From: a virus
Reading direction: 5' to 3' (one strand)
Virus record (IMG/VR): IMGVR_UViG_3300048020_000268
Span: 1-38,333 of that record
Length of the DNA stretch: 38,333 nucleotides
This document shows positions 1,357 through 14,355 of the stretch, piece by piece. A program made the position numbers and the translations under genes. The stretch's first letter is position 1; the number at the start of each line of letters is the position of its first letter. The notes beneath the pieces are model-generated. The model saw only the letters and a program-made list of their open reading frames with translations. It searched no databases and was not told the DNA's origin.

Positions 1357-2853
1357 ATGATATATAAGCAAATAGAAGAATCGGATAAAGTTTTTGGACG
1401 ATCACTGAGAGTTTCTTCTGGAACTTTCAATGAGGGGTTTCAACTTAAGTCAATGCACATTGATCAAGATGAACTTACCACCAAGATGGCGAAGTATGTT
1501 TTAACTGGTGCAGGTTCTGCATCAAATATATCAGACGCAGAACTTAGTAATTTAGATGCAGATGAACTTGAAGCATTTTCTTCTGATACAATATATGATT
1601 CTTACGAGAGTGCTTTTTTATTACAAGGTTATTCCCCACACATTGTTGCAACACAAAATTATCAACATGGACATTGGACTGATGTTTCTTTTGGTGATTA
1701 CTACGCAAATGTTTATGATGAGCAAACCAAACTTGGTGATATAGAAAATGAAAATGCTCAAGTACAATTTTCTGTTTCTTATGGTCACAAGCATGGTCAT
1801 GGTAGCAGACAAGGTAATAGATCAGCATCTGTTACACAGGCAATATATAATCAATATAGAAATATTTTACTTGGACCTGGTGACGATTCATTTACATTCA
1901 CATCAGACAACTCTGCTCTTTCGGGTGCGGACAGAGATTCTTTTTTTGTTATTAACTTTGCATCATCTGCACTTAAAGATAAAATAGATGAAGGAAACCT
2001 TGAATTTACTCTTAGTCTAAATGCAAGGTTTGAATATACACTTGATAACAATAGAACATTCATTGAACAAACTTTTACCCAAACATTTAGAGACGATTCT
2101 CGTTTTGAAACCGAGATATTATCTACAACCGGTGAGAAAAAAGTAGAAAAATCTTTTAACATAGTTAAGGGTACACTCGCAGATGGTGCTCCACAGACGG
2201 TAGACAAATATGCCGTAGGAACTGGTGACGGAGCAGGTGAGGGTTTCGGATTAATGTATCCTGATCTTGGATTGATTATTTTAAATCCATATGCACTTGC
2301 GTGTGAATTTGGTACTAGAATAGAAACATGGTACGATGAATGGTACTCAACATCAAAAACAAATATTTTTCCTTCAAAAGAAAATAATGTTGGAAGAGCA
2401 ATTTCATGGTCAGGAAACATAAACCCAACATCAACTGATTCAAGTGTATCTGATGATTTAAAACTGGGAATCGAGAGAAACCATCAGAACTTTTTAAAAT
2501 TGTTCTATATGCTAAAGAGTGGAGGTGACTTTAAATCAAGAAGCAGTGAACTCGTCCCATCCAAGCACTATTTTATACGAGTGCGAAATACTGATTTTAA
2601 TTATAGTAACAACCCAAGTTATATAATTCAATCAAAAGAGGCAAGAGAACTTGCGTCAACAACTGGTATGCCACTTGAGTATTATACTGGTAGATTGCGG
2701 TATGATAATTTTGTCAACGATCCGAGAACATATATTACTACAATAGGATTGTATAATGATAACAATGAACTACTTGCCGTGGCAAAAATGAGTGTACCTG
2801 TATTAAAAACATTTGATTCCGAAACTTTAATAAAAGTAAGATTAGATTTCTAA
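1357..2853 (+). CDS. Virion structural protein (tail/baseplate), shares C-terminal tag with next gene
   Basis: 498 residues from ATG 1357. An in-frame upstream start at 1300 would overlap the previous gene by 56 bases; I prefer 1357 because it begins one base after the TGA at 1353-1355. The protein is Asp/Ser-rich and soluble, with a His/Gly-rich segment (SVSYGHKHGHG) around residues 145-160. Such segments occur in tail fibre and baseplate proteins that bind metal. The last 40 residues (TTIGLYNDNNELLAVAK, ending VRLDF) resemble the end of the next gene product, suggesting a shared docking or folding element. Role inferred from context; no enzyme motif seen. Confidence 0.55.
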   Translation: MIYKQIEESDKVFGRSLRVSSGTFNEGFQLKSMHIDQDELTTKMAKYVLTGAGSASNISDAELSNLDADELEAFSSDTIYDSYESAFLLQGYSPHIVATQNYQHGHWTDVSFGDYYANVYDEQTKLGDIENENAQVQFSVSYGHKHGHGSRQGNRSASVTQAIYNQYRNILLGPGDDSFTFTSDNSALSGADRDSFFVINFASSALKDKIDEGNLEFTLSLNARFEYTLDNNRTFIEQTFTQTFRDDSRFETEILSTTGEKKVEKSFNIVKGTLADGAPQTVDKYAVGTGDGAGEGFGLMYPDLGLIILNPYALACEFGTRIETWYDEWYSTSKTNIFPSKENNVGRAISWSGNINPTSTDSSVSDDLKLGIERNHQNFLKLFYMLKSGGDFKSRSSELVPSKHYFIRVRNTDFNYSNNPSYIIQSKEARELASTTGMPLEYYTGRLRYDNFVNDPRTYITTIGLYNDNNELLAVAKMSVPVLKTFDSETLIKVRLDF

Positions 2854-2871
2854 GTATTTTCTAAGAAAAAT

Positions 2872-2880
2872 ATATTTATA
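2872..2880 (+). promoter_or_regulatory. ATATTTATA box before the adhesin gene
   Basis: ATATTTATA lies four bases upstream of ATG 2885 with no Shine-Dalgarno between. It is one of about ten copies of this A/T box at unit starts in the window. It may be a late -10 element or a translation-start context. Confidence 0.35.
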
Positions 2881-2884
2881 TTTT

Positions 2885-5800
2885 ATGATAAAGAATCTAC
2901 GTGTGTCTGACAAAACTGTCAGAAAATTTAAGTCGGCTAAGTCTTGGAAGTATTCTACAATTGACTCTTTATCTAATTTAGTTTTAGAACAAACGAAAAC
3001 AGATGGAACACAAGTACCGATTAGTCTTGATACTACACAATCAATAGCACTTGAACAGGCATCCAATAAGGCAAAAGTAAAAATAAAGTTTGGAAAAAAA
3101 ACCGATGGTAGATTTTATCCAGATGATCACGAATTTCACAATCCAGATATTGAATTAAAAAACACAGATGGGTCTTATTACAGAACTGTTTACGATTCAG
3201 TCAAACATTTATTTTACAATAGTTATGGCATTTATGACAATGAAGAGGATATTAAAAATCCATTAATGGTATTTGGATCACAAACAGGTCATTACAAAAC
3301 AGACGGAGATGACGGAGATGTATTGAGAGACGATACCGATAGATACGAGAAACGAAAATTGACAGATAATGTTCTTGTAATAGAATTTACAAAGAATCAA
3401 TTTGGTGAAACAATTAAGCCAAATAATTTCAAAATTAAAGATTACAGTTCTCCGTATGGTACAATTGAAATAGAAGATGATGGTTGCACTAACTTAGTTG
3501 TAAGTAATTCTTCGTTTAATGAAATTACTGAAATTTCACACGCAAACTCAGATAAAATTGAATTTCCCAACTTAAAACCAAAGTTTGACTCTGAGACACT
3601 ATCATTTGGAAAAAATATAGTTGCCGAGAGTGACTATGTGTTATCTGGTAGTCCAATGGATCAAGATTCTCCAACAGATTTTCTTACAGGTAGTGCTTCG
3701 TTGTTTAAATATGATAAATCTAAAAAGCAATTTAGAAGAATAAGAAAATTTAAATGCCCGTTTACACAAGAAGGTTTGCTATATGAGTCAAAACAAAACT
3801 CAAATGGTTTTTTAGTCACGGAGTTAGGAAACTTAATTGCGTCTGACGATTATTCACAAAATGATAATTTTGGTGGTGCGGTTGAATTAAAAAATGGTAC
3901 GTGTGCAATCGGGAGTTCTCGTTCACATATTACATCTGCCTGCAACGAGGCAAGACAGGGTCATGTCTTTATTTACGACATAAACAAAGGAGGAACTGAA
4001 CACTGGGGACTTGTAAATATATTAGAAGGTACACCGGGTTCTGAGTTTGGTTCATCAATTTCAATAAGTGGCAACTATATGGCAATAGGAGCACCTGGTA
4101 TGTATCATTGCGAAGGTGCGATTTACATTTTTGAAAAGTCTATTAGAGATAAAACATCACCTTGGTATAGAATATCAGACTCACACGATGATTTATGCTT
4201 TAATGAAAAATCAAATAACTTCTTAGGTTTCCCTGTATGCGATAAACTTAAAGAATTGAATGAAACCATATATAGATGGAAAATACAATCCGCATCTCCA
4301 CACGAAACACCAATGACTTATTTTTCAGAAAAAGGTGAAGACATCTGCGATGATTATGAAATTGCAACATTCAACGATGAAACCCTGAGTTACTATGGAA
4401 ATGACTTAGGAATGCCTACTAGTAGATTTTATAAGTTTGACGAGGATAGATATACACCACATTACGGCGAGGGTGATGTTATGTGGAAACTCGTAACTAT
4501 TATACGACAACCCGGAACCGATATGCTTGGTCAAAAAGTAAAATTGTACGGAAGCACACTTATTTCATCGACACCAAATACAGATAATCAGGAAGTTTAT
4601 GTTTTTAGAAAAAGACCAAAACAAGAAACTTCTTGTGATGAGTGGGTGTATACTCAAAAAATTACAAGAACAGGCACCTACAACTATGACCGAAATAAAG
4701 TAAATATGTCAAGTTCTTTTGACAACATAAACTTTAATATAAATAAAAATTCAATTACAATTGATGTAAAAACCAAATCTATTGATAAAAAAACATCACC
4801 AGGATTTATATGGAGATTGAATGAAGTATTTGGTTCTGGTGAAGACTTATATAGCAGTAAGATTTTTCACGGTGGTCGGACTGAATTGACCGAACAATTA
4901 AAACTGGAGAATCTTCCATATGGTGACCATGTTTTATATGTAGGCAGATATGATGGAAATTTTTTAGTTGATACTCCAGCAGCCATTAACTTTTCAATCA
5001 ACCCAACTCCGATTACTCCACAAGAAAGACACGAACAGGTAAAATATCCGTTTACATATAAAGAACCAAAGAAGCATGAATTTGGAATTACACTTGAGAC
5101 AAACGGTAGGTATTTATTTATAGGTGACTCAAGAGATAGAATTTATTCGGATTCTGATTTCAATAGTATTTTCAAAAAAGATTTTAACGCAGGTTCTGTA
5201 TATTTTTACTCAATGGAGGAAAGTTCAATTGAATTTATAAGAAAAATATATGAGGATGACGATGATGAAAGACGATACTCAAGTTCGTTTGGAAGTAGTC
5301 TTTCTATGATAGGAAGAGATTTGTTAATTGGATCACCGTGCCTTGAACAAACAAAAATTTCAATAATTGATAATGGAAAAAGTTTTGTCATACCAGATTT
5401 TTCACATGGTGCTGAAAACAACGAAGAAACTTCTTTTATTGTAGGTGAGTCTATGTTTACTAAATTTGAGCACGAATTTATTGGTGACGATTTTGTAGAT
5501 TTAAAACTTAAAATAGATGTTGCTTCAATTGACGCATTATCAATGGAATCACTTGATGATTTTGAAATAAAAGCATCTTTTCTTTCCGAAGAAGAAAGTT
5601 TGGTTGATGGAGAACACGGAACATTTACCCGTGGTATATATCGTGATAAAACTGAATATGATGGAGACTATGTAACTTTCTATTTAAAAGTATTGGGTCA
5701 TAAATTCGATCCAGACGAGGAGGTCGAATTTATATACTATATCCACAGAAATAGTATTCAAGGAACTGCAACTTATTGCAAAATAACAAGTGAAAACACT

Positions 5801-6997
5801 CTTGAAAAAATAAAAAACATAAAAACAATAAAGCAAAAAAATGGAGTGATGGGAAGTTACGGTACATCTGTTGCACTAAGTTCTGATTTTATATTTGTAG
5901 GTGAACCTATTGTTGGTGATTGGCCAATTGACTCGATTGAAGGGTTTGGTGAAGAATCTATTGTTTCATTTGATGGTTGTTCTCATGTATTTACTTCATC
6001 CGGTGATATCGTTTGGGGTAATTTAGAAAAGCAAGATATATTCGTAGAAGGAAAAATAATTAGTTACGATATCAGAACAATAAGAGATAATGTTAAAATA
6101 CACGTTGGAAACATTTTCTACAAAAATGGAATTGCAGTGATAACAGAACTTGGAAATTATTTTAAAGAAATGCTTACCCGGGGTGGCCGCAGAGGTTTTG
6201 AAATTTTATTTGACGGAGTAAATTCAATTTATGAGAATGAAATATTATGTAAAGTAAATCCAAATGAATTTAATATTAGTACAAACCCAACTTCCGTAAC
6301 ATATTCAGATATTCCTTTTGACGTTACAGGTGATAAGAAATTTACGATACTTGATGTATCCTACATTTATAGATACATAATGGGTACATTTAGAAAAATA
6401 GTTGTAGAATCAAGTGATGACGAAGAAGTACGAGATTCCTTGGTGCTTGAACAAGATAAAAAGTGGCCAAACGAGGATGTATTGTTAAGTGAGTCGGAAG
6501 ATGTCATCTTAATGAATACATTTATGAATATTACAAAAGATAATGTATTAAATCCAGAAGAAGAGTTGAATATACTTGAACGAATAGATACTATTTTTAA
6601 TATGGGTGCAGACGGATTGGATATTGATGGTGACGGTGCCGTTACTGCTAATGATGCAAAACTTCTTGCTAGATACTTTGTAGGTCGTAAAGGAAATTCA
6701 TTAGTTGACGGCTTAATAAATCCACTTGATGATACTATAACACGATACAAACCCTTCCAAATTATTCAGTATTTGGATATAAAGACAGGAAAAGATAGAG
6801 GTAGACGAATTATGCAGGATTTCTTAGATTATGATGAAAATGATAAAAACGATACAACAGGTAGTTATCTTGCACCATTTGCTACTACTATTGGTTTATA
6901 TGACGGACCTGATCTGGTAATGACTGCAAAACTTGGTTCACCTATTAAGATAGTTCCAAACTATCCTATAAATTTTTTGATAAAATACGACTCTTAG
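2885..6997 (+). CDS. Giant tail adhesin-like protein: seven FG-GAP-like blades plus dockerin module
   Basis: 1370 residues, the largest protein here. About seven repeats follow the FG-GAP pattern (xFGssvxxxgxxxxIGxP, then a strand ending in YxF): near residues 240 (SFGKNIVAESDYVLSGSP), 326 (NFGGAVELKNGTCAIGS), 386 (EFGSSISISGNYMAIGAPG), 549 (LGQKVKLYGSTLISSTP), 732 (EFGITLETNGRYLFIGD), 800 (SFGSSLSMIGRDLLIGSP) and 989 (SYGTSVALSSDFIFVGEP). Seven would fit one integrin-type beta-propeller. Beta-sandwich-like insertions sit between blades 4/5 and 6/7. Two dockerin-type calcium loops follow: DVTGDKKFTILD from residue 1146 and DIDGDGAVTAND from residue 1246. The final 40 residues resemble the end of the preceding gene. 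Probably a virion adhesin or baseplate spike; location and ligand are inferred. Confidence 0.7.
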   Translation: MIKNLRVSDKTVRKFKSAKSWKYSTIDSLSNLVLEQTKTDGTQVPISLDTTQSIALEQASNKAKVKIKFGKKTDGRFYPDDHEFHNPDIELKNTDGSYYRTVYDSVKHLFYNSYGIYDNEEDIKNPLMVFGSQTGHYKTDGDDGDVLRDDTDRYEKRKLTDNVLVIEFTKNQFGETIKPNNFKIKDYSSPYGTIEIEDDGCTNLVVSNSSFNEITEISHANSDKIEFPNLKPKFDSETLSFGKNIVAESDYVLSGSPMDQDSPTDFLTGSASLFKYDKSKKQFRRIRKFKCPFTQEGLLYESKQNSNGFLVTELGNLIASDDYSQNDNFGGAVELKNGTCAIGSSRSHITSACNEARQGHVFIYDINKGGTEHWGLVNILEGTPGSEFGSSISISGNYMAIGAPGMYHCEGAIYIFEKSIRDKTSPWYRISDSHDDLCFNEKSNNFLGFPVCDKLKELNETIYRWKIQSASPHETPMTYFSEKGEDICDDYEIATFNDETLSYYGNDLGMPTSRFYKFDEDRYTPHYGEGDVMWKLVTIIRQPGTDMLGQKVKLYGSTLISSTPNTDNQEVYVFRKRPKQETSCDEWVYTQKITRTGTYNYDRNKVNMSSSFDNINFNINKNSITIDVKTKSIDKKTSPGFIWRLNEVFGSGEDLYSSKIFHGGRTELTEQLKLENLPYGDHVLYVGRYDGNFLVDTPAAINFSINPTPITPQERHEQVKYPFTYKEPKKHEFGITLETNGRYLFIGDSRDRIYSDSDFNSIFKKDFNAGSVYFYSMEESSIEFIRKIYEDDDDERRYSSSFGSSLSMIGRDLLIGSPCLEQTKISIIDNGKSFVIPDFSHGAENNEETSFIVGESMFTKFEHEFIGDDFVDLKLKIDVASIDALSMESLDDFEIKASFLSEEESLVDGEHGTFTRGIYRDKTEYDGDYVTFYLKVLGHKFDPDEEVEFIYYIHRNSIQGTATYCKITSENTLEKIKNIKTIKQKNGVMGSYGTSVALSSDFIFVGEPIVGDWPIDSIEGFGEESIVSFDGCSHVFTSSGDIVWGNLEKQDIFVEGKIISYDIRTIRDNVKIHVGNIFYKNGIAVITELGNYFKEMLTRGGRRGFEILFDGVNSIYENEILCKVNPNEFNISTNPTSVTYSDIPFDVTGDKKFTILDVSYIYRYIMGTFRKIVVESSDDEEVRDSLVLEQDKKWPNEDVLLSESEDVILMNTFMNITKDNVLNPEEELNILERIDTIFNMGADGLDIDGDGAVTANDAKLLARYFVGRKGNSLVDGLINPLDDTITRYKPFQIIQYLDIKTGKDRGRRIMQDFLDYDENDKNDTTGSYLAPFATTIGLYDGPDLVMTAKLGSPIKIVPNYPINFLIKYDS

Positions 6998-7604: not shown

Positions 7605-8132
7605 ATGCAAGATATAAAAGTATCTCTTGGACTAGACATTAGTTCAACGACAATAGGTTATTGTTATTCATCTTCTGAACAGAAAATAAATCAAGCAGGA
7701 TACATTTCTGTTCATAAAGAAATCTCCATAAGAAACAAAGCACAAAAGGTTGCGGAAGAATTAAGAAAAATTCAACTGCAACCTTTTGTTATTATTGTAG
7801 AAGATTCACTTAGTGGATTTGGTGGTGGAAGAACGAGTCAACAGACTATTGTAAAATTAGCAAAGTGTAATGCCATAATAAGTTATGTTGTAGAAGAGTT
7901 ATATAATTTAGAAGTACAACATATTAATGTATCTACGATGCGTAAAGCAGTATTTGGAAAAAGCAGAGAAAAAGGATTAGATAGTAAAACATTTGTAAAG
8001 TGCAACCTTGAAAATATGCTTGATTTATCCGACTTTATTCACTATAATTCTAAGAATAATTATGATAAAAAAAACTACGATATGCTTGATGCCGTGGTCG
8101 CATCTCTGCATCATTGGTATTCTTTAAAATAG
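7605..8132 (+). CDS. RuvC-like Holliday junction resolvase / RNase H-fold nuclease
   Basis: 175 residues, the length of RuvC. The acidic residues of the RuvC/RNase H fold are in the expected order: D11 in SLGLDISSTTIGY (first strand), E66 in VIIVEDSLSGFGGG, and the pair D159/D162 in NYDMLDAVVASL near the C-terminus. A TSQQT segment and a helix follow E66 as in RuvC relatives. The enzyme would cut branched DNA to resolve recombination or replication intermediates before packaging, a job done in T4 by the unrelated endonuclease VII (gp49). The stop TAG overlaps the GTG of the primase gene. The start ATG 7605 has no clear Shine-Dalgarno. Confident of the fold, less of the exact substrate. Confidence 0.8.
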   Translation: MQDIKVSLGLDISSTTIGYCYSSSEQKINQAGYISVHKEISIRNKAQKVAEELRKIQLQPFVIIVEDSLSGFGGGRTSQQTIVKLAKCNAIISYVVEELYNLEVQHINVSTMRKAVFGKSREKGLDSKTFVKCNLENMLDLSDFIHYNSKNNYDKKNYDMLDAVVASLHHWYSLK

Positions 8133-9061
8133 TGGGCATCTCTGAACAAAAACTTCTCAATCTTCTGCAAAAAGTATTAGGAACTGGAAAAATCGTCTCT
8201 AAAGACGAGGCTATGTTTATGTGTCCATTTTCACATCATAGAAAACCCAAACTTGCTATTAATTTATCTACACAAAGGTGGCAAAGTTGGATTGATACAA
8301 ATGCAAAAGGCAGATCAATCTATGGTTTATTCAAAAAGATGAATGTTGCTCCACAATATCTTACGGAATTATCTAGAATTGTAAAGATACCAAAAAACAC
8401 ACAACAAACCGAAGAGGAAGAGATAAAAGTTCACCTTCCATACGAATTTACATCGTTGCAGTATGACACCAAAAAAACAAGAGCATCAAAGGTTGCGTTT
8501 AATTACCTAAGACAACGAAACATATTTTCTTATGATATAGAAAGATATAATATTGGATATTGTGAAAGTGGTGATTATGCCAATAGAATCATAGTACCAT
8601 CATATGATTGTGACAATAATTTAAATTATTTTATAGCAAGAGATTTTACAGGAACTGCGTATTTACGATACAAAAATCCACCAGTCAGTAAAGATGTTGT
8701 GGTGTTTGAGAATCAAATTGATTTCTCTGAACCACTTATTTTTTGTGAGGGTGTATTTGATGCTATGGCAATTCGTAGAAATGCAATTCCACTATTGGGG
8801 AAGAATATTCCAAGTAAACTAAAAACAAAATTAGTTGAGCATGGAGTTTCTGAAGTATGTATCGTTCTTGATAATGATGCATTCAAAAACGCATTACAAA
8901 TTTCCGAAACATTGATGAACGAAAATGTTCGTGTCAAATTGGTAAAAATGGGAAATGACGATGCGGCGGACATTGGGTTTAATAAAATAATTCATAAAAT
9001 TAGAAATGCAGAACTTCTTGATTTTAGTGAATTGATGAAGCAAAAGTTATGCATGAACTAA
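8132..9061 (+). CDS. DNA primase, DnaG/T4 gp61-like, with Toprim domain
   Basis: 309 residues from GTG 8132, which overlaps the preceding TAG by one base; a TTG at 8114 is an alternative. The N-terminal segment CPFSHHRKPKLAINL followed by WQSW aligns by eye with the zinc-binding region of gp61/DnaG primases, but only C31 and H35/H36 remain of the usual ligands. The Toprim catalytic domain is intact: E206 in FCEGVFDA and the DxD pair D247/D249 in VLDNDAF. The protein would make RNA primers for lagging-strand synthesis with a helicase not in this window. It overlaps the next gene by 13 bases (ATG 9049), so the block is one operon. Confidence 0.82.
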   Translation: MGISEQKLLNLLQKVLGTGKIVSKDEAMFMCPFSHHRKPKLAINLSTQRWQSWIDTNAKGRSIYGLFKKMNVAPQYLTELSRIVKIPKNTQQTEEEEIKVHLPYEFTSLQYDTKKTRASKVAFNYLRQRNIFSYDIERYNIGYCESGDYANRIIVPSYDCDNNLNYFIARDFTGTAYLRYKNPPVSKDVVVFENQIDFSEPLIFCEGVFDAMAIRRNAIPLLGKNIPSKLKTKLVEHGVSEVCIVLDNDAFKNALQISETLMNENVRVKLVKMGNDDAADIGFNKIIHKIRNAELLDFSELMKQKLCMN

Positions 9062-9753
9062 AAACAAATTTAAAGAATGTTGAAAAAGTATATCATCTCG
9101 CAGACATTCATATAAGAAACGTAAAAAGACACAATGAATATTCATTGGTATTTGAAAACTTTTACAAACAAGTAAAAGAAGATAATCTTGATAATGCGAT
9201 AATTTTTATTGGTGGGGATATTGCTCATGCCAAAACAGAAATGAGTCCAGAGTTGATTCACCAAATATCTTCATTTTTAAGAGAGTGTTCTAAACTTCAT
9301 CCAACGATTGTAATTGCAGGAAATCATGATTGTAATTTGAATAATCCTGATCGTCTTGACGTACTATCACCTATACTTGATATGATGGACGATGACAATT
9401 TGTTTTATTTAAAAGATACTGGTGTATATAAATTAGGTGATGTTGCTATTGGAGTTTTTGGGATATTTGAAGAACCAGGTGAATATATCAAAGGTTCTGA
9501 CATAAAAGATGATTCTATTAAAACCAAGATTGCGGTATACCACGGTGCGGTAAAAAGAAGTAGAACCGATATAGGATATGTAGTTATGGGTGGTGATATT
9601 AATCTACCTATGTTTAATGGATATGATATTGTTATGCTTGGGGATATACACAAGTATCAAGTTTTGCAGGAGTATCAAACTGAGCATAGATTTATTCCTG
9701 AGAGTAAGATAGATGAATATAAATTAGAAGGATGGTGCGTTAGTGATGACTAA
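9049..9753 (+). CDS. SbcD/gp47 N-terminal half: metallophosphoesterase subunit of recombination nuclease
   Basis: 234 residues, shorter than full gp47/SbcD (over 330). All Mre11/SbcD metal-binding motifs are present in order: D19 and H21 (HLADIHIR), D57 (IGGDIAH), N92-H93-D94 (AGNHD), H165 (AVYHGA) and H201 (LGDIHKYQ). The protein stops 33 residues after the last motif, at the point where the family continues into a strand-rich cap. That missing part, including the SGSMIQQNHGE segment, is at the start of the gene at 10668. The gene has thus been split, with a glycosyltransferase-like gene in the gap. The stop overlaps that gene by eight bases. The catalytic core is intact, so the halves may work in trans. 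Confidence 0.85.
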   Translation: MHELKTNLKNVEKVYHLADIHIRNVKRHNEYSLVFENFYKQVKEDNLDNAIIFIGGDIAHAKTEMSPELIHQISSFLRECSKLHPTIVIAGNHDCNLNNPDRLDVLSPILDMMDDDNLFYLKDTGVYKLGDVAIGVFGIFEEPGEYIKGSDIKDDSIKTKIAVYHGAVKRSRTDIGYVVMGGDINLPMFNGYDIVMLGDIHKYQVLQEYQTEHRFIPESKIDEYKLEGWCVSDD

Positions 9754-10678
9754 TATACTCATAAGATGTAGAAACATACAAATCGGTGATACTTTGTTTG
9801 CAAGTAGTGTTGCAAAAAAACTGAAAGAAGAAAACCCAAACTGCGTAGTTCATTATGACATTTCTTTTTTACAACCAATTGAGTTGATGATGAACAATCC
9901 ATATATCGATGGGGTGTTTTATAAAGAATCTGCGGATATTCAATATGATGTAGTTTACAATCTAATTGATACAGATTTTGTAATTGATCCATATATATCG
10001 GCCGTTTCTCAACTTCAAAGGTTGTGCAATATTAAAAACTTCGACGATACCTTTGAAATTTATACAAACCCTCACCTTGATTATTCTATAAAGAAAAGTA
10101 TTCAAGAATTAAAAAACATAAATGAATTAGAAGATGGTGTAATTTTGGTAGGATATCAAGTAGATTGGGAACGAAAAAGTTATTTGTTTACAGAAGATGA
10201 ATATGAAAAAGCAGAAGGTGCAGAAGATGGATCAGGATACGGAAGTGGCAAACGAAATATTTATGATATAATAAATCCACTAGAGGTTAACTCAGATGTT
10301 TTGTTGCTTGCACTTGGTATAGAGGAAAAAATTTCCAAGCACTATCCCGAAATAAACTCTACAAACAAATTTTCTTTTACTGCAAGTTTAATTAAAAATT
10401 GCGACTATGTAATTGGTGCTGAAGGGTGTATTACAAATATGTCATCGGCAATTGGAACAAAAACTATTATTACAACTGATTACATTCATCAGTTGTTCGG
10501 TCCCAAAGGAATTAACTGGTTAAAGCAAGGAAGAGATTTTTCTAATTTAGAAAAAAGAACTCCGTTTTTAGGACCTCATGTGTATTTTCCAAATAATGGT
10601 CATGTGCATCTTAGTCCATATCTTACTGATTACGAGGTAGGGGAAGAAATTTTAGAAATTGTAACGAATGGAAGATAA
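9746..10678 (+). CDS. GT9-like (heptosyltransferase-type) glycosyltransferase, inserted in the SbcD gene
   Basis: 310 residues from ATG 9746 (a GTG at 9743 is also in frame). The N-terminus ILIRCRNIQIGDTLFASS matches the family 9 glycosyltransferase start (R..xIGDxxxxxP..). The C-terminal part has IGAEGCITNMSSAIGTKTII followed by QLFGP, like the donor-site motif of ADP-heptose:LPS heptosyltransferases. The middle (about 130-190) is poorly matched and includes an acidic Gly-rich linker (EGAEDGSGYGSG). It overlaps the SbcD half upstream by eight bases and the SbcD-SbcC gene downstream by eleven, so all three should be co-translated. A sugar transferase acting on host surface glycan, virion protein or phage DNA is possible; substrate unknown. 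Confidence 0.65.
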   Translation: MTNILIRCRNIQIGDTLFASSVAKKLKEENPNCVVHYDISFLQPIELMMNNPYIDGVFYKESADIQYDVVYNLIDTDFVIDPYISAVSQLQRLCNIKNFDDTFEIYTNPHLDYSIKKSIQELKNINELEDGVILVGYQVDWERKSYLFTEDEYEKAEGAEDGSGYGSGKRNIYDIINPLEVNSDVLLLALGIEEKISKHYPEINSTNKFSFTASLIKNCDYVIGAEGCITNMSSAIGTKTIITTDYIHQLFGPKGINWLKQGRDFSNLEKRTPFLGPHVYFPNNGHVHLSPYLTDYEVGEEILEIVTNGR

Positions 10679-13268
10679 AGAAACATACATAAAAGTAACA
10701 AGACATAATCCCGAAAAACCGGTTGTGGTTTATTCGGGTAGTATGATACAACAAAACCACGGGGAGTTGCCTTCTGGCCATGGTTATGTTTTATGGGATT
10801 TGAAAAATAGAACACACCAACAATATGATGTACATAATGAATATGGTTATTATACGGTTACGGTTCGTGATGGAAAGTGTGTTAGTGATTTATCTAAACT
10901 ACCAAATAAAGCAAGATTGCGTGTCAAGGTGTACAATACAACCGCAACTGAGACAAAGGAGATTATTGCAGAAATACGAAAGCAAACTAGTATAACGGAT
11001 TTAAATGTTACACGATGTGATGCAATTTCCGAAGCAAAAAAATTTGATCGTGACAACAAATTTGATTTCGGTGACATATCTCTTGCACAGATTCAAAATG
11101 ATTTAATTGAAGATTATCTAACTCGTAATTTTGTGGTTGATGAAGAGCAAATAAAAACTGCTCTTGACATTAATAAAGAAGTAAATGAAAAGTTGGTAAT
11201 TAAAGAGATACTTAAAAACTGTATTTGGAAACCAAAGAAGTTTGAGTTTGGAAATATGTTTAGTTACGGCGATGGAAATGTAATTGACTTTTCTAATATG
11301 AAAAGTGTTATGGGGTTGTTTGCTTCTAATGCAAGTGGTAAAAGTAGTGTAATGAGTGCATTGAGTTTTTGTTTATTTGATAAGTGTGACCGTGCGTTCA
11401 AGGCCTCACACGTATTGAATACACAAACGGATAATTTTTATTGTAAACTTAATTTTGAAATATCCAATATAAATTATTATATTGAAAGAACTGCATCCAC
11501 AAAAAAGAATGGAGATGTTACCGTTGTTGTAGATTTTTGGAAACTAGACGAAGATGGTCAGACCATTTCATTAAACGGTGAACAAAGAGCAGGAACAAAC
11601 GCACTTATTCGTGATCATGTAGGTTCTTATGATGACTTTGTATTAACTACTTTGAGTTTACAAAATAACAATGCGATTTTCATAGATAAAAGTCAGAGTG
11701 AAAGAAAAGACTTGCTTGCTCAATTTATGGGAATTGATATATTTGATCAATTGCACTCTACTGCATCTGAAGATATAAAAGAAATAAATGCATTATTAAA
11801 AAGATTTAATCGTGAAAATTTTGATGAAACATTGGTAGAGGTAACAGAAAAACTAAGCAGTATATCAGAACAATATTCAGAGCAGGAAAGTAAAACTAAT
11901 GTTGCACTACTAGAGCAAAAACGCATTAACAAAATTCTCTCAGATAAAAGTTCTAAATTTAAAAATTGTTCGTTTGATGAAGATAGTTCCGACATAGATA
12001 ATTTGGAATTTAATAAAAAGAACTTAGAAGATAGACTTGTGGTTGCAGAAGAACAAAGAGATGTAGAATCTGCACGAAAAAAAGAACTTGTAAATAAACG
12101 AGGAGACTTATCAAAAAGAATTTCTGAGTTATCTGATGTAGAAGAAAATTATGTAAAGGTTCTTAAAATAAGAGAAGAGGTTGTAATTGTTGATAAAGAC
12201 TTAGCAGTTTTGAGAACTTCGGTTAATGCAAAACTTGATAAATTAAAACATTATGATGATCACGAATATGATCCGAAATGTTCATATTGTGTAAACAACT
12301 CTAAAAACTTAATTGAAAGTGCAGAGCAAACCAAACAAGAACTTGACAAAGATAAAGCAGCCGCAGACGAACTTGTAAAACAAAAAGCAGTATATACAGA
12401 ACAATTAAGTGAATTTGAGAATGTAGAAGATGAATATGAAGAATTAAAAGATTTGAACAACACTTTCACACAAACTTCATTTGAAATCAACGAAGCAGAT
12501 TCAAAAGTTCTTGCTTTATCTAGTATGATAGAGTCACTTGAAAAGGATATAGTAATTAATAACAAGAACATTGATTCATACCATGAGTGTAAAGACATAA
12601 TTGAATTTAATAAAAAACTACAAGTCGAGGTAGATGCTCTTCAAGATAAGTTATTGTCTGTAAACAAAATAGCAAATGATGAAAGTGAAAAACTTCAAAC
12701 TCTTTTTGGTGAGGTAAAAATTGTTGAAAAAGAACACGAAGATATTCTTGCATCAATAGAAGAAGCAAAAAGCTACGAAAGAAAAAAACGAGGATATGAA
12801 CTTTATCTTGATGCTGTAAAACGAGATGGTATATCATATGAACTTATTTCTAAAACTATTCCAAGTATTGAAAGTGAAGTAAATAATATACTTTCTCAAA
12901 TCGTTGATTTCGGTATGAATCTCGAAATGGACGGAAAACATATTTACTCAAAGATTACTTACGAGGATCGTCATTGGCCATTAGAAATGTGCAGTGGCAT
13001 GGAACGATTCATAAGCAGTATTGCTATGCGTGTAGCACTTATCAATGTAAGTAGTCTTCCTCGTTCTAATTTCCTTGTTATTGATGAAGGGTGGGGTTCA
13101 TTAGACGGAGACAATATCAGCAGTGTATTTAATCTATTTACATATCTAAAAGGTCAGTTTGAGTTCATACTTGTTATAAGTCATTTGGATGTTATGAGAG
13201 ATATGGTAGACGAAATTGTAGAAATTCAAAAAGAAGGTTCATTTAGTAAGATAAATTACGGAGCATAA
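10668..13268 (+). CDS. SbcD C-terminal cap fused to SbcC/gp46 ATPase
   Basis: 866 residues. Residues 1-190 are the C-terminal part of SbcD/gp47: VVVYSGSMIQQNHGE, GHGYVLWDLKNRTHQQYD, then LRVKVYN and an RDNKFDFGD segment. Residues about 190-866 are SbcC/gp46: Walker A ASNASGKS (219-226), Q-loop LQNN near 331, a long coiled coil with zinc-hook CSYC (538-541), ABC signature CSGME (775-779), Walker B FLVIDE (802-807) and H-loop H839. gp46 and gp47 together process DNA ends for recombination-dependent replication. Here the ATPase carries the cap domain of its nuclease partner, which would link the two subunits even though the catalytic domain is a separate polypeptide. ATG 10668 overlaps the glycosyltransferase stop. 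Confidence 0.85.
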   Translation: MEDKETYIKVTRHNPEKPVVVYSGSMIQQNHGELPSGHGYVLWDLKNRTHQQYDVHNEYGYYTVTVRDGKCVSDLSKLPNKARLRVKVYNTTATETKEIIAEIRKQTSITDLNVTRCDAISEAKKFDRDNKFDFGDISLAQIQNDLIEDYLTRNFVVDEEQIKTALDINKEVNEKLVIKEILKNCIWKPKKFEFGNMFSYGDGNVIDFSNMKSVMGLFASNASGKSSVMSALSFCLFDKCDRAFKASHVLNTQTDNFYCKLNFEISNINYYIERTASTKKNGDVTVVVDFWKLDEDGQTISLNGEQRAGTNALIRDHVGSYDDFVLTTLSLQNNNAIFIDKSQSERKDLLAQFMGIDIFDQLHSTASEDIKEINALLKRFNRENFDETLVEVTEKLSSISEQYSEQESKTNVALLEQKRINKILSDKSSKFKNCSFDEDSSDIDNLEFNKKNLEDRLVVAEEQRDVESARKKELVNKRGDLSKRISELSDVEENYVKVLKIREEVVIVDKDLAVLRTSVNAKLDKLKHYDDHEYDPKCSYCVNNSKNLIESAEQTKQELDKDKAAADELVKQKAVYTEQLSEFENVEDEYEELKDLNNTFTQTSFEINEADSKVLALSSMIESLEKDIVINNKNIDSYHECKDIIEFNKKLQVEVDALQDKLLSVNKIANDESEKLQTLFGEVKIVEKEHEDILASIEEAKSYERKKRGYELYLDAVKRDGISYELISKTIPSIESEVNNILSQIVDFGMNLEMDGKHIYSKITYEDRHWPLEMCSGMERFISSIAMRVALINVSSLPRSNFLVIDEGWGSLDGDNISSVFNLFTYLKGQFEFILVISHLDVMRDMVDEIVEIQKEGSFSKINYGA

Positions 13269-13283
13269 AACATATTTAGATAT

Positions 13284-13292
13284 ATATTTATT
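13284..13292 (+). promoter_or_regulatory. Candidate late promoter box ATATTTATT
   Basis: ATATTTATT lies in the 43-base gap between SbcC and the kinase gene, 19 bases before ATG 13312. A second related run, TATTTATG, includes the start codon itself. No Shine-Dalgarno is visible. Confidence 0.35.
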
Positions 13293-13311
13293 ATGTACCT
13301 AAAATGTATTT

Positions 13312-14355
13312 ATGGAAAATTCTGAAGAAAATCAAAAAGTCCAAGAAACCCTGATTAAAGCAGGATTGCGTAAAGGATACTTTACACTTGTAGAGGGTGT
13401 ATATGACCCTGGCATTTTAAAAGCAGTATTTCTAGCAGGTGGTCCTGGTTCTGGTAAATCTGCTACTGTTGATACATTATTCAATTTTCCACCGGATGCA
13501 AGAAACTTATCACCAAGTGGATTAAAGATTGTTAATAGTGATCCTGCATTTGAGATATTACTAAAAAAAGCAGGATACGATTTAAATCTTGCTAAAATGG
13601 ACGACAAAACCTTTAGCAAAGTAACAAGCAATGATCCAAATAGTGTTCGTTCCCGTGCAAAGAAAATAATGCTTAAACAATTTGAGTTATTTAAAGATGG
13701 TCGTTTGGGTGTTATCGTTGATGGAACTGGTGATGATTATGCTAAAATATCAAAGCAAAAAAAAGAACTTGAAAAACTAGGATACGATTGTTATATGGTG
13801 TTTGTAAACACAACATTAGATGTGGCACAACAAAGAAACGCAATGCGTAAAAGAAAACTTCCACGAAAAATAGTAAAAGATATTTGGACAGATGTTCAAA
13901 AAAATCTTGGTAAGTTTCAAGGTTTGTTTAAAGCAAATTTTGTTATAGTAGATAATTCAGAAGATACTCGCAGTAAAACAAAACCTGGTAGATTAGATTT
14001 AGTTCCACGACTTATGAAAGAAGTTGCAAGATTTATATCCAAACCAATTCGTAATCCACTTGGAAAAAAGTGGATTAAAATGATGATGGCACATGATAGG
14101 GTGAGTAAGAGTGGTGATAAAAGAAATCGTATGAACGAAGAACTGGATATGGTTTCAATGGGAGATGTAGTTCTACCTATGGATTTGGAAAGACATTTAT
14201 CTCGTTCTATATTTGTAATTAAAAAATTTAAATTAAACGAAAGACGGAATCTTGCAATTATATCAAGACTGGTTGAAAGTTTAGAGTTGGATAGAAACCA
14301 ACTTAATAAATACTTCCATCAAATTAGAACATTAAAGTTCAGAGGAGAAAAATGA
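13312..14355 (+). CDS. P-loop kinase of zeta-toxin/polynucleotide kinase type with C-terminal helical domain
   Basis: 347 residues. A perfect Walker A, GGPGSGKS, lies at 43-50, followed by NSD (75-77) and a second strand GVIVDGTGDD with D137 as the likely Walker B-like acid. Basic residues in RNAMRKRKLPRK fit a lid. The arrangement is that of zeta-toxin/PNK-like small-molecule kinases, which are common in marine phages. Residues about 230-347 form an extra helical, basic domain (KKWIKMMMAHDR, FVIKKFKLNERRN) of unknown role. No antitoxin-like gene is adjacent, so a free-standing toxin is unlikely. A nucleotide, nucleic-acid end or sugar kinase is more probable. The stop overlaps the next gene's start (ATGATG). 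Confidence 0.7.
   Translation: MENSEENQKVQETLIKAGLRKGYFTLVEGVYDPGILKAVFLAGGPGSGKSATVDTLFNFPPDARNLSPSGLKIVNSDPAFEILLKKAGYDLNLAKMDDKTFSKVTSNDPNSVRSRAKKIMLKQFELFKDGRLGVIVDGTGDDYAKISKQKKELEKLGYDCYMVFVNTTLDVAQQRNAMRKRKLPRKIVKDIWTDVQKNLGKFQGLFKANFVIVDNSEDTRSKTKPGRLDLVPRLMKEVARFISKPIRNPLGKKWIKMMMAHDRVSKSGDKRNRMNEELDMVSMGDVVLPMDLERHLSRSIFVIKKFKLNERRNLAIISRLVESLELDRNQLNKYFHQIRTLKFRGEK

Follow-up and report, generated by a model that had tools for sequence, protein, structure and literature searches.

A phage sbcD-sbcC gene split at a recurrent site, with a glycosyltransferase-like gene in the break

Some phage genes are cut by homing endonuclease genes (HEGs) and work as two chains. Passages of PMC2988022 report that nrdA of Aeromonas phage Aeh1 is cut by the free-standing HEG mobE without splicing and that the two-chain enzyme is active; according to part of PMC3267527, the ribonucleotide reductase alpha of Aeh1 is composed of two polypeptides in the active enzyme. 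The same passages of PMC2988022 describe the T4 topoisomerase gene 39/60, which mobA splits, and the split gene 43 of phage 25 as working in two chains, and leave open whether an endonuclease made the phage 25 split. A section of PMC10448857 ties homing endonucleases, through HEG-islands and HEG turnover, to essential phage genes, with interchangeable endonuclease classes. Here we analyze the virus record IMGVR_UViG_3300048020_000268 (38,333 bases; the window, meaning this whole stretch), in which a gene for a fused SbcD-SbcC nuclease is split within its SbcD part by a gene resembling glycosyltransferases of family GT9.

A split sbcD-sbcC gene in the window and its clade

The original prediction described an SbcD gene split by an inserted GT9-like gene, and its coordinates and overlaps (Table 1) proved exact. 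As it stated, the front-half protein has all the SbcD metal motifs, which are invariant across five aligned sequences (the window's own included), and its open reading frame (ORF 9049-9753) stops 33 residues past GDIH. This protein matches Metallophos (4.6e-9, Pfam) and PHROG100 (2.8e-17), and scores 29.2 bits against TIGR00619, under the cut-off of 77.65. The SbcD part is not complete in one chain and continues in ORF 10668-13268, downstream of the inserted ORF, which starts with ATG at 9746. The second ORF had been taken to begin with the missing cap. Its homology to the SbcD C-terminus stood, given that both halves lie in one ORF in 93 distinct genes, including that of Microcystis phage Mel-JY01 (a single 1,066-aa ORF). 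The ORF is more than the cap alone: judged by homology, it is the rest of SbcD fused to SbcC/Rad50, and the cut precedes the cap boundary. The back half matches PHROG77 across residues 84-864 (E 1.5e-44) and TIGR00618 with 68.1 bits, under its cut-off of 478.5. All the SbcC/Rad50 features were found in it, namely what we take to be the Walker A, CxxC hook, signature and Walker B motifs.

The break lies in the loop directly after GDIH and before a Y-x-G-S-x-I segment, which, going by Mre11 structures, is presumably part of the nuclease core; on that assumption the cut falls within the catalytic core, between GDIH and the next core segment. A solved Mre11/SbcD chain (2q8u, 4o24; which we take to be from Thermotoga maritima) has the same block order and a loop of a few residues, the stretch being a weak match when taken alone (i-Evalue 1.7).

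Scans of IMG/VR together with phage records yielded 116 distinct SbcD-SbcC sequences of usable length. The IMG/VR relatives are the best 80 of at least 537 and the best 80 of at least 572 confirmed; because they are the best-ranked part of longer lists, counts of split and intact genes are not prevalences. The search for the locus without its insert, which had been proposed as a check, recovered 93 uninterrupted genes, and the other 23 are split (22 from the window's clade plus the uncultured phage LR756508). In the intact genes, the GDIHK and Y-x-G-S-[LM]-I-Q-Q-N blocks lie 12-48 bases apart. By this sequence comparison, the ancestral gene is a fused SbcD-SbcC. Measured against the intact gene of locus L103 (DIHKHQILQEYDDNESLPVVVYAGS), the front half gained a tail of about 27 residues and the back half a head of about 14 residues (MEDKETYIKVTRHN). 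The junction thus has extra sequence on both sides, and the insertion is not clean, contrary to the original prediction.

Two other phage genes were seen among these records. The uncultured phage LR756501 (735 kb) encodes an uninterrupted 1,202-aa SbcD-SbcC fusion (L005 5526-9134, minus strand), and an 866-aa ORF of Thermus phage phiLo (L004 6521-9121, minus strand) begins like SbcD and shows a weak SbcC-like match in a later part.

The window's clade is monophyletic (Shimodaira-Hasegawa-like approximate likelihood ratio support, SH-aLRT, 99 to 100). Front half, glycosyltransferase gene and back half are all present in 35 of 39 related IMG/VR contigs, some of them partly, at the edge of the stretch; L239 and L247 stop within the glycosyltransferase gene, L053 has the back half only, and L042 is apparently chimeric. 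In each of 23 representatives a possible start codon of the glycosyltransferase frame (ATG in 22, GTG in L040) lies 8 bases ahead of the front-half end, and the frame extends 8, 11 or 14 bases into the back half. Median ratios of nonsynonymous to synonymous substitution rates (dN/dS) among 15 representatives are as follows: front half, 0.081; back half, 0.085; glycosyltransferase gene, 0.205 (67, 90 and 71 usable pairs out of 105). The tail (58 pairs) has a median of 0.19 and the head (90 pairs) of 0.28, against 0.06-0.09 for the rest of the halves. Both halves are therefore under purifying selection in the window's clade, which favors a working two-chain nuclease, and constraint on the tail and head, although weaker, is clear. 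Two chains or an altered recombination function had been offered as alternatives, and the first fares better while the second is disfavored.

Table 1. Features of the split gene and its upstream neighbor in the window
Feature	Coordinates	Strand	Remarks
DnaG-like primase	8132..9061	+	overlaps SbcD ORF 3' of it
SbcD/Mre11 front half, 234 aa, with extra tail at end	9049..9753	+	motifs DxH, GD, GNHD, HG, GDIH
Tail EYQTEHRFIPESKIDEYKLEGWCVSDD	9670..9750	+	not in uninterrupted relatives examined; similar in 5 other lineages
Inserted gene, GT9-like (GT-B) fold predicted, 310 aa	9746..10678	+	overlaps neighbors by 8 and 11 bases
Head MEDKETYIKVTRHNPEK, N-terminal peptide of back half	10668..10718	+	first ~14 residues extra
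Remainder of SbcD (YSGSMIQQNHGE... and cap)	10719..11228	+	by sequence alignment
SbcC/Rad50 part, same ORF as SbcD remainder	11229..13268	+	Walker A ASNASGKSS, CxxC hook, SGMERF, Walker B

The window belongs to a phage of an uncultured contractile-tailed group; PHROGs profiles identify terminase, portal and tail sheath genes and one for the major head protein. Its recombination region encodes, in order, a RuvC-like resolvase, the DnaG-like primase, the SbcD front half, the GT9-like protein and the back half. Primase homologues (39-40% identical) lie directly 5' of SbcD in LR756508 and Mel-JY01. Directly 3' of the split gene, the window encodes a Zeta-toxin-like/AAA_33 kinase-like protein (13312-14355; 6.8e-11). 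Elsewhere (2885-6997) it encodes a possible adhesin of 1,370 aa, in which FG-GAP repeats (9.2e-17) and a dockerin type I domain (1.2e-6) were recognized.

The same break in other lineages

The phage LR756508 (484 kb; locus L002) has a gene 38-39% identical to that of the window and cut at the same point, and the tail that closes its front half follows the same pattern. The protein encoded in the gap (305 aa) has cysteine-rich stretches, and its TnsA-like endonuclease domain scores 27.2 bits (E 5.8e-6; cut-off 26.5). Among relatives of this endonuclease at 11 loci, the best SbcD-SbcC match in the stretches examined reached only E 0.066, and the DNA patterns used recovered no close IMG/VR relatives of the LR756508 front half. 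About 2.4 kb 5' of the split sbcDC, LR756508 also has an IS605 OrfB/TnpB-like gene with a Cas12f1-like TNB domain (L002 6881-8098; 6.4e-23).

A DNA pattern composed of GDIHK, 75 free bases and GW at fixed spacing matched 61 of 221 loci, all of them split, and no uninterrupted locus. Over IMG/VR it retrieved 47 stretches, comprising 35 from the window's clade, 5 unrelated reading frames and 7 other SbcD-SbcC genes; genome contigs gave 25 matches, none in SbcD. The contents of the gap differ among the additional genes. L265 has the same cut, a similar tail and an ORF of 103 aa in the gap, and in L233, also with a similar tail, the halves overlap and no gene separates them (one contig each). L250 has a similar tail and 133 noncoding bases between the halves. 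In the pair L248/L267, 15 bases separate the halves in L248, and the L267 stretch ends soon after the break. In L230/L266 the gene is re-fused, with 1,079 codons open and both tail and head kept in frame.

L230 and L250 are close relatives in DNA (94% identical across 4.8 kb of downstream sequence and 89% identical across 0.55 kb upstream); a difference of 154 bases falls precisely on the junction and has GAAGAAA at both ends. The simpler reading would be a deletion in L230, where the join has one base less than a simple repeat-mediated deletion would leave; an insertion in L250 would be a less simple alternative.

An intein also interrupts the SbcD front half in both L248 (reverse strand, 11720-13309) and L267, between the D of GNHD and the following C. 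In L248 it scores 26.0 bits against the NCBIfam model intein_Nterm (cut-off 24.5), and therefore an intein and the tail-type break occur in one gene.

The inserted protein of the window's clade would, on its AlphaFold model, be GT9-like with a GT-B fold. The model (17 sequences; predicted local distance difference test, pLDDT, 76.7; predicted template modeling score, pTM, 0.78) is nearest to GT9 glycosyltransferase and heptosyltransferase structures, among them 3tov (GT9; E 1e-9, template modeling score, TM, 0.57) and 1psw (WaaF; 1.9e-7), and is also close to a phage RfaF-like protein. No GT9 profile in Pfam, PHROGs or NCBIfam matched the protein, and tblastn against phage records gave no match at 1e-5. 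D15 of an IGD motif is invariant in 17 of 17 sequences, and we take it to be the equivalent of the catalytic Asp of WaaC. The GC content at third codon positions (GC3) of the gene is near that of the halves (0.22 vs 0.21). As the same site is split with other cargo in other lineages, a homing-type element probably came first here and the glycosyltransferase later. This other cargo, the fused SbcD-SbcC, the position of the cut directly after GDIH and the tail and head were all absent from the original prediction.

A proposed mechanism and its alternatives

We propose that the loop between GDIH and the next conserved segment of phage sbcD-sbcC fusions is a hotspot for homing-type mobile elements. 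An element, represented by the endonuclease gene in LR756508, would insert there, so that the front chain ends in an added tail and the back chain begins with an added head. Overlapping start and stop codons would couple translation of the pieces, and the Mre11 core would be assembled in trans from the two chains, the back one also carrying SbcC. The tail (strand-helix) and head (strand) probably pack as a small strand-helix-strand clasp joining the chains, a docking role we infer because of the analogy with Aeh1 NrdA. Later, the GT9-like gene would have become cargo in the window's clade, and elsewhere cargo would have been lost or the ORF re-fused. For this combination of hotspot insertion, coupled translation and a two-chain nuclease held by a clasp, we estimate a probability of roughly 0.7. 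More tentatively, there may be a class of elements with its own two-part docking domain that splits sbcDC at one codon and staples the nuclease together at the protein level. The gap would then be a cargo slot for an endonuclease, a glycosyltransferase, a small ORF or nothing, and re-fusion would leave the staple as a scar.

Several observations weigh against this mechanism. A recognizable endonuclease gene is present in just one of the six tail-bearing lineages (LR756508), and the window has a glycosyltransferase-like gene instead. L230/L250, L233, L248 and L265 were found with the pattern that fixes GDIHK, GW and their spacing, and LR756508 without it. The SbcC part of L248 (reverse complement, ~1613-4050) changes frame between SLNGEQ and TFDKLY and loses a conserved stretch, and this copy may therefore be decayed or misassembled. 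Neither the tail nor the tail-head module had a significant match in Pfam or PHROGs, and tblastn with the tail in phage records returned LR756508 itself only, or 15 weak matches (E 4 to 8). The heads, which are short and were compared in segments that include a few native residues, are alike beyond shuffles (p <0.05) in just 13 of 21 pairs, one of these pairs lying within the window's clade. An AlphaFold model of the re-fused L230 protein places a strand (197-201), a helix (204-212) and two strands (216-220 and 223-229) in the module, at mean pLDDT values of 43, 72, 57 and 32 for residues 191-230 taken in tens; with this low confidence and an unfolded cap, the model lends the clasp little support. 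Conserved tails could also reflect a common origin of the elements instead of function, and, taken on their own, the window's clade and LR756508 could have one origin (approximately unbiased, AU, test, p 0.275).

The alternative that survives best, though we consider it unlikely, is that the chains reassemble through the Mre11 core and the SbcC part, and that tail and head are translated leftovers of the element with no role in docking. Faster evolution of both peptides than of the remaining halves would fit such leftovers, as would the limited likeness of the heads and the low-confidence model. Their dN/dS nevertheless stays below 1, and a common tail pattern recurs in six lineages, even in L233 and L248, where no gene lies between the halves. 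The tails are more alike than shuffled sequences in 15 of 15 lineage pairs (p 1e-4 to 0.022; 21 columns without gaps, GDIHK and GW excluded).

Somewhat less probable still is one ancestral insertion followed by many precise losses. All six lineages have the tail at one and the same codon, and one clade is not rejected for the window's clade with LR756508 alone, as a single gain would predict; a single clade of seven tail-bearing rows, covering five of the six lineages, was however rejected by the AU test (p 2e-49; L230 was excluded because of its very long branch). L233 is sister to the uninterrupted L160, and L248 groups with the uninterrupted L121 (support 100 each). The trees are quick searches; for L248, 46% of the columns contain residues, some of which belong to its intein. 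L230, the sole recognizable re-fusion, kept its tail and head as a scar, which makes many scarless losses less likely, and none of the 93 intact genes has a linker longer than 48 bases. As the tail-bearing genes do not form one clade, we favor a homing-type element that probably struck this site repeatedly, its cargo being replaced over time; a homing element would be expected to insert again and again at a single site.

It is improbable that the nuclease is dead or altered, in which case the split would be a form of decay and just one part, either the SbcC ATPase or the front phosphoesterase, would function alone. The cut runs through the catalytic core, one contig (L030) has an apparent frameshift near the SbcC end, and the SbcC part of L248 is broken, all of which decay would explain. 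We reject it for the window's clade, which keeps the catalytic motifs, has dN/dS of about 0.08 in both halves and retains the three genes in 35 of 39 contigs.

We give almost no credence to a split intein or an intron restoring one chain, in agreement with the original prediction: although the L248 gene has an intein elsewhere and many heads of the window's clade end in HN, followed in L036 by S as at a splicing junction, the other HN-ending heads examined continue with P, A, G, Q or K, some heads lack HN, the 27-aa tail is far too short for an intein half (inteins being well above 27 aa), no intein profile matched the front-half or back-half protein, and Rfam found no family, group I or II introns included, in the window or in L002, L233, L248, L250 and L265. 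An assembly or binning artefact is just as hard to credit, and the worry over assembly error is answered for the window's clade by 35 independent contigs with different IMG numbers and front halves 71-100% identical, even though one short contig resembles a chimera (L042 2-1798; IMG/VR 3300006334_000919). In that probably chimeric assembly, SbcD is joined after FNGYDIVM to a seemingly ribonucleotide reductase-like sequence, a label that we presume from reading by eye.

Comparison with known split genes

The likeness to Aeh1 nrdA lies in an essential enzyme gene kept in two parts as separate ORFs without splicing, with extra peptides at the new ends. The differences are that another gene is broken at another position, that the cargo in the window is glycosyltransferase-like, and that the sbcDC site was struck in several lineages with similar tails. 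The nrdA-a/mobE/nrdA-b arrangement of Aeh1 was reportedly studied by Friedrich in 2007 and Crona in 2011, and Crona et al. are said to have found in 2011 that the extra NrdA peptides are essential for assembly. Comparison of the Aeh1 NrdA-a tail with the sbcDC tails gave p values of 0.006 to 0.32, a resemblance that is suggestive at most; the match being marginal, we do not claim homology.

T4 gene 39/60 and phage 25 gene 43 resemble sbcDC as phage replication genes split in association with HEGs, and cargo exchange and a shared tail module are not described in the relevant passages of PMC2988022. In HEG-islands, as a section of PMC10448857 presents them, HEGs flank the cargo, whereas in the window a gene other than an endonuclease gene lies inside the split gene. 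The best match among named phage records, Mel-JY01, shares the SbcD-SbcC fusion and the upstream primase and differs in having an uninterrupted gene with neither tail nor head. Fractured genes with split inteins were reportedly described by Dassa in 2009, as environmental phage gene halves flanking an endonuclease gene. They are similar in having a gene between the halves; the difference is that no intein halves were recognized in sbcDC, and trans-splicing is not expected.

Like other genes in pieces, the window gene has uninterrupted homologues, separate ORFs without splicing and extra peptides at both new ends; no endonuclease gene lies at its break, and among these loci only LR756508 has one. 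In searches of an open-access library, subscription papers being outside the scope, we found no report of a split sbcDC, of glycosyltransferase cargo or of a shared tail module. What appears to be new is thus the recurrent sbcDC split, a glycosyltransferase as cargo, and a tail module common to lineages at one site. These genes widen the Aeh1 nrdA precedent into a comparable series, in which one codon of one enzyme is affected in six lineages with varied fillings, intact sisters and a re-fused relative. The series permits direct tests of how phages tolerate a gene cut through a nuclease domain, of whether element-derived peptides serve as assembly domains, and of how a useful gene takes over the slot of a selfish element. 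The tail and head could also provide two-part tags that evolved naturally.

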